Shown: positions 19,747 through 22,056 of the stretch, one piece after another | Position numbering within the stretch: position 1 is the stretch's first letter | How the letters are laid out: the number at the start of each line of letters is the position of its first letter | Assembly: GCA_020846975.1 (NCBI GenBank) | Contig: JADLCX010000050.1 | Location: 1-64,000 of the forward strand | Length of the DNA: 64,000 nucleotides | Direction of reading: 5' to 3' | Source of the DNA: Phycisphaerales bacterium | GTDB taxonomy: Bacteria; Planctomycetota; Phycisphaerae; Phycisphaerales; UBA1924 | The notes under the pieces: generated by a model | What the model saw: only the letters and a program-made list of their open reading frames with translations | What the model was told of the DNA's origin: nothing | The model's database searches: none | Position numbers and translations under genes: made by a program

Positions 19747-22056
19747 ATGCGTGTCTACAGAGTCCAATACCGGGGCCGCGATAAGCAGCTCCATGAAGCC
19801 CGCAAATGGTACTTGGCGTTCCGCGACCAGCGCGGGACGGTTCGGCGCCTGGCGGGCTACACCTCCAAATCCGCCACCGAGGAGCTTGGTCGCAAGTTCC
19901 AGCAGCTCATCGGTTACCACATCGCCACCGGCGGCCAGACCGACCCGGCCCTCTCGCAGTGGATCAACGACCAACCCGAATCCATGCAGTTGAAGCTCGC
20001 GGCGATCGGCCTGCTTGACCGCCAGAGACTGGCCGTCACCCGGCTGCTCGTCGGGCACCTCGACGCCTTCGAGGAGGCGTTGAAGGCCAAGGGCACCAGC
20101 GTTAAGCAAGCCGAGCAAGTCGCGGGGCGGGCCCGTAAGGTCATCGACGGGTGCAAGTTCAAGAACATCGGGGATGTGAATGGCGCGGCGGTGATGACGT
20201 ACTTGGAACGTCTGCGCCGCGACACGGTCGATGCCAAGGGAAAGGTTGTCAAGCGCGGGTTCAGCGCCCAGACTTCGAACTTCCATCTCGCGGCCATCAA
20301 GCAGCTCTTCAAGTGGATGGTCCGGGAGGGACGCGCGACCGAGTCCCCGGTAGCGCACCTGACCGGCCTCAACGTTCGCCTGGACCGCCGCCACGACCGC
20401 CGGCCGTTGACCGCGGACGAGGTACGGCGGCTCCTCGCGGCCGCGACTGGCGGGCCCGTCGTCTACGCGGTGCCCGGCCCGGCGCGGGCGTTGTTCTACC
20501 GCTTGGCGGTCGAAACCGGCCTGCGGTCCAACGAACTGCGGAGCCTGACGCGCGCTTCGTTCGACCTTGCCAACGCCACCGTGACGGTCGAGGCCGCCTA
20601 CGCCAAGAACCGCCGCCGGGACACGCTGCCGATCCGGCCCGAACTGGCCGCGGCCGTCAGCGAGCACGCGGCCACGCTCGCCCCCGCTGCGCCGCTGTTC
20701 AAGCTTCCCCACCCCGACACCATCGTGGACATGCTCAAGGCTGACCTAAAGGCCGCGGGCATCCCGTACGAACTGGACGGCAGGTTCGCCGACATGCACG
20801 CGCTCCGGCACACCTGCGGGACGTGGCTGGCGGCGGCCGGGGTGCACCCCAAGGTCATCCAGCGCGTGCTCCGTCATAGCACCATCACGCTGACGCTCGA
20901 CCGCTACACGCATGCGTTCAGGGGTGATGAGGTCGCGGCGGTTGCGAAGCTCCCGTCGCTGTCCGAGGCGGTACAGCTGCGCGCAACCGGCACCGATGGC
21001 GCTTCGACCGCGGTGAACAAGCCGCCGGGTGACTTGGCGCTCTGCTTGGCGTCACTGGGGCGACCCGTGGAGCCTTGTGGAGACTCAGATAGACTCCGGG
21101 CGGGCTCGCGGTTCACCGAGGAAAACCGCGAGATTCCCGCAAAACACCACGATTCCTCGGGAAAAACCGAAGCGCGGCCGGCGAGATTCGAACTCACGAC
21201 CTGCGGTTTAGGAAACCGCCGCTCTATCCAGCTGAGCTACGACCGCGTCGAATCAAGGATAGTCTTGTCGGCGTGCCAGCGGGCGGTACCGGGAGGCTCG
21301 GAGCGCGGCGGGGTCGGGAACTCGGAGCGTGGAATGAGCGGTCGAGTTCGCGTATGGCCTTTGCCGTTGACGCACCAGCGCGCGGTCGGAACGGCGGTGG
21401 TGGTTGACCTGCTGCGTGCGTCCACGACCATCACGCGGGCGCTGGGCGCCGGCGCGGCCTGCGTGCGTCCATGCCTGGAGACGGGCGAGGCGTTGGCGCT
21501 GCGCGGGGCCGGGGTGGTGCTCGGCGGCGAACGCGGCGGGGTACGCATCGAGGGGTTCGATCTGGGCAACTCGCCCGCCGAATACACCCGCGCGAGTGTG
21601 GGGGGAAGGGTGGTCGTCTTCACGACCACCAACGGGACGCGCGCCATCGAAGCGGCGAGGCGGGCGGTCCGGGGGCGCGCGAGCGCGGTGCTGGTGGGCT
21701 GCCTCAACAACCTGTCGGCGGTGGTTGGGCTTGCGAGCGGGGCGGCGGGTGTGGAGGTTGTGTGCGCGGGCACAGGAGGCTTGGTCACCGACGACGACCT
21801 GATCTGCGCCGGCGCGATCGCGGAGCAGCTTATCGAAGCGGGCTTCGAGGCCGCGGGCGATGAGGGAACCAGCGGGGCGATCGCGGCGTGGCGCTCGGCG
21901 CGGACGGATCTGGCCGCCGCGCTGCGGCGCACCCGCGGCGGGCGCAACCTCGTCGAGATCGGGCTCGGCGGGGATGTGGACGATTGCGCGGCGATCAACA
22001 CATGCGGAGTCGTCGGCGTGCTCGCGGACGATGGTACACTGCGGGCCAGCCCATGA
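19747..22056 (+). CDS. Tyrosine integrase; frame reads through att/tRNA into comB
   Basis: Site-specific recombinase that integrates the island at the tRNA 3' end. It has an N-terminal arm-binding region, a core-binding SAM-like domain (residues about 85-215) and a catalytic domain with arginine in GLRSNELRS (about 258), HALRHTCG (about 350), and VLRHSTITLTLDRYTH containing the tyrosine nucleophile (about 386). Residues about 475-491 are the antisense of the tRNA-Arg 3' half. In the related copy at 1053-1859 the frame continues into a native tail and stops. Here it enters the tRNA 5' half and the host flank, finds no stop, and stays in frame with comB up to 22056. The working integrase probably ends functionally near residue 475. 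Whether a fused 769-residue product is made is unknown. Confidence 0.85.
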   Translation: MRVYRVQYRGRDKQLHEARKWYLAFRDQRGTVRRLAGYTSKSATEELGRKFQQLIGYHIATGGQTDPALSQWINDQPESMQLKLAAIGLLDRQRLAVTRLLVGHLDAFEEALKAKGTSVKQAEQVAGRARKVIDGCKFKNIGDVNGAAVMTYLERLRRDTVDAKGKVVKRGFSAQTSNFHLAAIKQLFKWMVREGRATESPVAHLTGLNVRLDRRHDRRPLTADEVRRLLAAATGGPVVYAVPGPARALFYRLAVETGLRSNELRSLTRASFDLANATVTVEAAYAKNRRRDTLPIRPELAAAVSEHAATLAPAAPLFKLPHPDTIVDMLKADLKAAGIPYELDGRFADMHALRHTCGTWLAAAGVHPKVIQRVLRHSTITLTLDRYTHAFRGDEVAAVAKLPSLSEAVQLRATGTDGASTAVNKPPGDLALCLASLGRPVEPCGDSDRLRAGSRFTEENREIPAKHHDSSGKTEARPARFELTTCGLGNRRSIQLSYDRVESRIVLSACQRAVPGGSERGGVGNSERGMSGRVRVWPLPLTHQRAVGTAVVVDLLRASTTITRALGAGAACVRPCLETGEALALRGAGVVLGGERGGVRIEGFDLGNSPAEYTRASVGGRVVVFTTTNGTRAIEAARRAVRGRASAVLVGCLNNLSAVVGLASGAAGVEVVCAGTGGLVTDDDLICAGAIAEQLIEAGFEAAGDEGTSGAIAAWRSARTDLAAALRRTRGGRNLVEIGLGGDVDDCAAINTCGVVGVLADDGTLRASP
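21173..21246 (-). tRNA. tRNA-Arg (anticodon CCU)
   Basis: A full cloverleaf can be drawn: seven-base acceptor stem GCGGTCG/CGGCCGC with one G-U pair, D stem GCTC/GAGC, anticodon stem GCGGT/ACCGC with loop TTCCTAA, and T stem with loop TTCGAAT. The anticodon CCT reads AGG (arginine). CCA is not encoded. Its 3' half is shared with the island att sites, so integration at this end left the tRNA intact. Confidence 0.95.
21334..22056 (+). CDS. comB: 2-phosphosulfolactate phosphatase family protein (ComB)
   Basis: A 240-residue protein from the ATG preceded by GGAG. Family blocks are clear: VVVDLLRASTTITRAL at the start, then LGGERGGVRIEGFDLGNSPA, FTTTNGTRAI, GCLNNLSAV and CAGTGGLVTDDDLICAGAI. ComB removes phosphate from 2-phosphosulfolactate to give sulfolactate, a step of coenzyme M synthesis in methanogens; many bacteria carry a homologue whose role is less certain. 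The gene is host DNA flanking the tRNA. Its frame is open upstream into the integrase because of the integration event. The stop overlaps the next start (ATGA). Confidence 0.85.
   Translation: MSGRVRVWPLPLTHQRAVGTAVVVDLLRASTTITRALGAGAACVRPCLETGEALALRGAGVVLGGERGGVRIEGFDLGNSPAEYTRASVGGRVVVFTTTNGTRAIEAARRAVRGRASAVLVGCLNNLSAVVGLASGAAGVEVVCAGTGGLVTDDDLICAGAIAEQLIEAGFEAAGDEGTSGAIAAWRSARTDLAAALRRTRGGRNLVEIGLGGDVDDCAAINTCGVVGVLADDGTLRASP

Follow-up and report, generated by a model that had tools for sequence, protein, structure and literature searches.

An integrase gene containing its own attachment site and a conserved C-terminal tail that integration would remove

In a 64,000-nucleotide stretch of a Phycisphaerales contig (the window), the attachment site (attP) of a putative integrated element lies within the reading frame of its own integrase gene (int). 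The explanation that best fits the observations as a whole, to which we assign a probability of roughly 0.7, is that integration severs a C-terminal tail from the integrase, that excision rejoins the two, and that the tail acts in the free form of the element. A preliminary description of this DNA had already placed attP inside int. The comparisons presented here go beyond it, in that they indicate that the lost tail is a segment conserved across the family and that the design is phylum-wide.

Results

An integrase reading frame that crosses a tRNA gene

In the list of ORFs of the window, positions 19747-22056 of the plus strand form a single ORF of 769 codons without a stop, in which Pfam detects a Phage_integrase domain (residues 221-390) and a 2-phosphosulpholactate phosphatase (ComB) domain (residues 545-760). 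The integrase is a tyrosine recombinase (PF00589, 6e-18), and the R...HxxR...Y residues of this class are present, with the motifs GLRSNELR, HALRHT and RHSTITLTLDRYTH. As defined by ORF, Pfam and motifs, the integrase body extends from 19747 to 21219 (+) and comprises the DNA-binding and catalytic domains, a linker, and the in-frame antisense of the 3' half of a tRNA-Arg up to the core repeat. The tRNA itself, a tRNA-Arg(CCT) called by ARAGORN on the minus strand at 21172-21246, is regenerated at attR, its 3' half coming from the element and its 5' half from the host. Read antisense, it corresponds to residues ~475-500 of the ORF, the 3' half up to the core being residues 475-491, as the preliminary description gave. 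The 20-bp core, CCTGCGGTTTAGGAAACCGC, at 21200-21219 (+), occurs only twice within the window, the other occurrence being at 1657-1676; both the tRNA and the attR core fall within the integrase frame. From 21220 to 22056 (+) the frame is coded by the host and runs through the tRNA 5' half and the flank, and then in frame into comB, as had been stated. Directly 5' of int lies a gene for an AlpA-like helix-turn-helix protein (19374-19688, +; PF05930, 7e-7), a candidate excision factor.

A related integrase with a different C-terminus

The second core repeat (1657-1676, +) marks the left end of the element and lies in a related integrase, copy A. This copy is 5'-truncated, finishes with the tRNA 3' half and core that the main integrase also carries (1053-1676, +) and constitutes the element's junction site. 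It aligns without interruption with 20596-21219 and shows 92% protein identity to the integrase up to the shared 20-bp core, the divergence starting exactly past CCTGCGGTTTAGGAAACCGC. Beyond the core, the frame of copy A (1053-1859) reads a different 59-residue tail, SKRASRAEGESCEPAPVDLARCLADLADARPELGALLAAWDQLPAAIRAGIRAMVSAAK, ending at a stop codon (1857-1859). We read the segment at 1677-1859 (+), i.e. 59 residues from 1680 plus the stop, as the severed conserved C-terminal tail of the integrase. Two earlier proposals are borne out here: that the related copy continues past the core into a conserved tail and a stop, and that integration exchanges the integrase C-terminus, since the copies diverge exactly after the core and excised pairs restore the tail (see below).

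As part of the overall explanation given above, the element would be about 19.5 kb long (1677-21219) and integrated at tRNA-Arg(CCT). It is taken as a tandem insertion behind the related integrase at 1053-1676, the front of which has been lost. Since its left site consists of a truncated relative of the integrase in place of clean host DNA, the position of the element boundary depends on reading the insertion as a tandem one and on what has happened to copy A.

Integrase frames and orphan tails at tRNA genes of related genomes

In related genomes, integrase frames commonly enter tRNA genes antisense. A set of 80 distinct integrase 3' ends contains 49 that overlap a tRNA (46 of them antisense, covering 22 anticodon types) and 8 that stop before a nearby one; the remainder have no tRNA within 600 nt or lie at a contig end. 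Thus, where a tRNA is present within 600 nt, 49/57 integrases run into it; the case that the preliminary description had named as refuting it, in which all relatives end before the tRNA-derived stretch, was not observed.

A query consisting of the tail only matched 116/397 genomes of the class, most of the matches being short ORFs of their own. Upstream of these orphan tails, most frames begin with a peptide read antisense from a tRNA 3' half, for example GGIRTRGAGVNPL or ADGTRTRNHRIDS. When the upstream stretches were compared with 112 tRNAs, a tRNA half in the expected orientation was found in 50/67; with a strict T-loop rule added, 54/68 tails lie directly behind tRNA-half sequence, against 0/64 for downstream control stretches. 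No tRNA trace was seen at 14/68 tails, some of which are contig ends or degenerate. The 50 BLAST matches to tRNA halves comprised 42 antisense matches and 8 to the sense 5' half. The same tail design thus also occurs with the sense tRNA 5' half in place of the antisense 3' half, in a minority of elements (loci L149/L150 in genome G408 and L262 in G715). The first single-protein scans of genome contigs and viral contigs gave no useful relatives, and a search of a plasmid collection gave no match. Together, these sequence comparisons indicate that attP within int, combined with a conserved tail, is a layout found generally in the phylum of the host and used at many tRNA isotypes.

Joining of att sites restores the integrase-tail frame

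Excision was then modelled for orphan tails and integrases that lie on one contig in attL/attR order, by joining them at their shared repeat. In 12/12 such pairs, from ten genomes, the int frame of the joined site reaches the conserved tail without a stop; the odds of an in-frame tail by chance in all 12 are about (1/3)^12. Nine of the 12 pairs had been found by a query without tRNA-derived residues; the other three had been found by a query that contained such residues and are therefore mildly biased. The repeats are 20-71 bp long and the sites are tRNA-Gly, Arg, Ser, Val, Lys, Met, Thr and Asp genes plus one site without a called tRNA; in their integrated forms, these integrases end in about 1-61 host-coded residues instead of the tail. 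A 13th same-contig pair, in a viral record, lies at tRNA-Lys with a 48-bp repeat and also has its tail frame restored. In the window's own genome, the int-tail frame is restored for two elements split over contigs, at tRNA-Ala (48-bp repeat) and tRNA-Asp (47 bp), and for a third, at tRNA-Val, with a repeat of only 14 bp.

Intact forms were observed as well. A 43-kb IMG/VR viral contig carries a 574-residue int-tail frame, and a 9.2-kb viral record, which is probably circular because it has 99-bp repeats at its ends, reads int, tRNA half and tail. That most tails appear in chromosomes as short ORFs could mean that a small independent gene, such as one for a regulator, lies at the edge of the element and only appears fused to int in the circle. 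We consider this quite unlikely: an ATG precedes the motif in only 8/38 orphan tails and an SD-like start in 4/38, the frame through the tRNA stretch up to the tail is open in 38/40, and the intact fused frames just described exist.

The tail as a conserved protein segment

The tail has the consensus PDLAAxVxAWPxLPEAVRAGIVAMVxAA, with the motif W..LP...R.GI.AMV.A. It gave no match above cut-off in Pfam and PHROGs and none among phage records, and its ends carry no shared ssrA-like tag. Its likeness to the C-termini of two integrases that do not cross a tRNA (L062/L065) was weak, with a non-significant profile, and this kinship was discarded. In pairwise comparisons, dN/dS of the tail is mostly about 0.2-0.5, and below 1 in most pairs; for the window's two tails, dN is 0.14 and dS 0.41. 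Since dN is well below dS in most pairs, the codon comparisons indicate that the tail is maintained as protein.

These values bear on whether the exchange of C-termini has any function. attP might overlap int merely for compactness, the frame beyond the core being open by chance in high-GC DNA, and it is true that integrated C-termini are arbitrary, range from 1 to more than 250 residues and are apparently tolerated. However, all excised frames run into one and the same conserved tail, which shows dN/dS below 1 in most pairs, and intact int-tail forms are present in viral contigs. We regard a functionless exchange as unlikely, and the in-frame test leaves it strongly disfavoured.

A further possibility is that the tail region is conserved for its DNA, as the P' arm of attP with its binding sites, rather than for the protein that it encodes. 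The attP arms must indeed lie in this region, and between the window copies synonymous divergence in the linker up to the core is low (0.067, versus 0.34 in the catalytic part). Such a low value is expected where attP DNA lies, and gene conversion could account for part of it. In the tail itself, dS is high yet residues are kept, and we judge conservation as DNA to be very unlikely.

A structure model of a full-length viral integrase (low depth, 6 sequences, pTM 0.40) shows a folded body followed by ~150 residues with pLDDT below 50, which contain the tRNA stretch, and then two tail helices (539-550 and 553-569) with pLDDT ~78-80. The prediction for the tail is thus a hairpin of helices carried by a long, disordered linker, the coding part of which would hold attP.

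Read-through into comB

The comB-like 2-phosphosulpholactate phosphatase gene (21334-22056, +; Pfam) starts at an ATG of its own (21334), and a GGAG precedes this codon by 6 nt; a separate ComB is therefore likely made from this start. In the core-to-comB interval, only the integrase frame, among the three, stays open through comB. The preliminary description singled out this read-through into a host gene as unusual, and this view was not supported: at least 100 codons past the anticodon are open in the integrase frame at 5/46 loci, compared with 8/46 and 7/46 for the other two frames. In-frame fusions to co-oriented host genes across regenerated tRNA genes also recur elsewhere, with subtilase (L251, genome G041), AroD/AroE, i.e. 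dehydroquinase/shikimate dehydrogenase (L252, G064), and ribosomal protein S20 (L257, G011). Given that the integrase frame shows no excess of read-through over the other two, and that read-through recurs with unrelated genes, the Int-ComB fusion is probably accidental, the host flank happening to have no stop in this frame. Selection for the fusion itself, for example because it subjects int to regulation by the host or inactivates comB, might be suggested by the 278 codons that remain open beyond the core; with no enrichment in the integrase frame, unrelated partners elsewhere and a comB that retains its own start signals, we consider it highly improbable.

Discussion

Comparison with known systems

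The integrase (IntP/IntX) of Myxococcus phage Mx8, the details of which we drew from PMC6070905, PMC4383910 and the Mx8 record AF396866, and that of Mx9 also have attP within the integrase coding sequence, and their integration creates a new 3' end. Mx8 had been proposed as precedent and is the right one, as its attP, too, lies in the int frame; this frame (AF396866) reads an apparent antisense tRNA 3' half, ARSTGLEPVLLGSFYANP. By its sequence, the window integrase belongs to this type, with attP in the int frame and the C-terminus replaced. Mx8 also carries a small excision factor gene, uoi, directly upstream of int, where the window has the AlpA-like candidate. The preliminary description had suggested that integration could lock the enzyme in one state; for Mx8, a review reports that the integrated form of the integrase has a changed specificity and is not inactivated (PMC6070905). 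No significant match was found between Mx8 Int and the tail profile, or between Mx8 Int and the window integrase by BLASTP. The design appears to work like that of Mx8 Int, with a tail that is not recognisably related. The Mx8 design is known from single phages, whereas the present one occurs widely in a phylum and has a single conserved tail: the known bacterial case so far was a pair of myxophages, and the arrangement now appears common in a bacterial phylum, with a tail that is new to family databases.

SSV-type "suicidal" archaeal integrases likewise have the recombination site within the integrase gene, which is split by integration. There, however, the split parts an N-terminal from a catalytic piece and the products are inactive, whereas the integrated copy described here has a complete catalytic domain by Pfam and loses only its C-terminal tail. 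A 2021 review describes self-disrupting recombinases as exclusively archaeal (PMC8371274). In the integration-dependent immunity of mycobacteriophages (BPs and relatives), attP also lies in a regulatory gene and integration alters the C-terminus of the product, but that gene encodes the repressor and not the integrase (PMC4557955), while in the window it encodes the integrase. Finally, the C-terminal alphaN helix of XerA controls recombination and not cleavage (PMC3646895); it forms part of the catalytic domain, and recombination never removes it, whereas the window tail is a further extension on a linker.

Proposed mechanism

The sequences show how the gene is arranged: in the free circle, int reads body, tRNA-derived stretch and tail. 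Crossover at the anticodon cuts int and joins the body to host-coded sequence, here leading into comB. Since attP lies within int and the tail beyond it, integration takes the tail off the enzyme and strands it at the element's far end, and excision would rejoin body and tail. Every complete element examined has this arrangement. We infer that Int with the tail would work before integration and Int without it after, and that the form of the enzyme would report whether the element is integrated. Only the free form (or a tandem junction) would yield the tail and Int in one translation product. That the tail is conserved points to a function in that form, most likely the promotion or licensing of integration, although restraint of excision or an effect on stability may apply instead. 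Excision would have to proceed without the tail, probably with the AlpA-like factor encoded at 19374-19688.

More tentatively, and at somewhat less than even odds, the tail might serve specifically to switch the enzyme with the integration state: as a mobile hairpin of helices on its disordered linker, it would license integration and be physically removed by the very reaction it enables, giving a self-reporting, reversible control of directionality in a large bacterial group of tRNA-targeting elements. If the tail does set direction, these elements would turn integration off by cutting their own enzyme's gene, a simple answer to the problem of integration reversal. The arrangement would also explain many short "hypothetical" ORFs that start with tRNA antisense sequence, and the tail could serve as a new marker for the far end of integrated elements.

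Local history of the integration site

A second stranded tail, 74-76% identical to the first, lies at 24486-24734 (-) behind a displaced tRNA 3' half with the anticodon loop CCA, which suggests the old attL of an older related element; its source may have been a tRNA-Arg or a tRNA-Trp. It is oriented opposite to the main element and adjoins an rve-type transposase (23389-24390). An IS-mediated inversion may explain why this old attL (24.5-24.7 kb) now lies on the right-hand side of comB, and order and orientation fit. The synteny of comB or thyX with tRNA-Arg(CCT) was checked in relatives; no conserved neighbour was found, and the original left flank could therefore not be fixed.

At the left end, ORF 843-1859 is chimeric: the fragment at 940-1053, to which copy A is joined, looks like antisense sequence of the RHS gene, which indicates that a rearrangement involving DNA of a related element truncated copy A. 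Within the element, an RHS-repeat protein of 2367 residues (10246-17349, -) occupies about a third of the length, a ParB-like domain is fused to an N6/N4 DNA methylase (4283-5746), and a Mutator-family (IS256-like) transposase is found at 17642-18937. Another transposase, of the DDE_3 type, occupies the contig's left edge (2-763).
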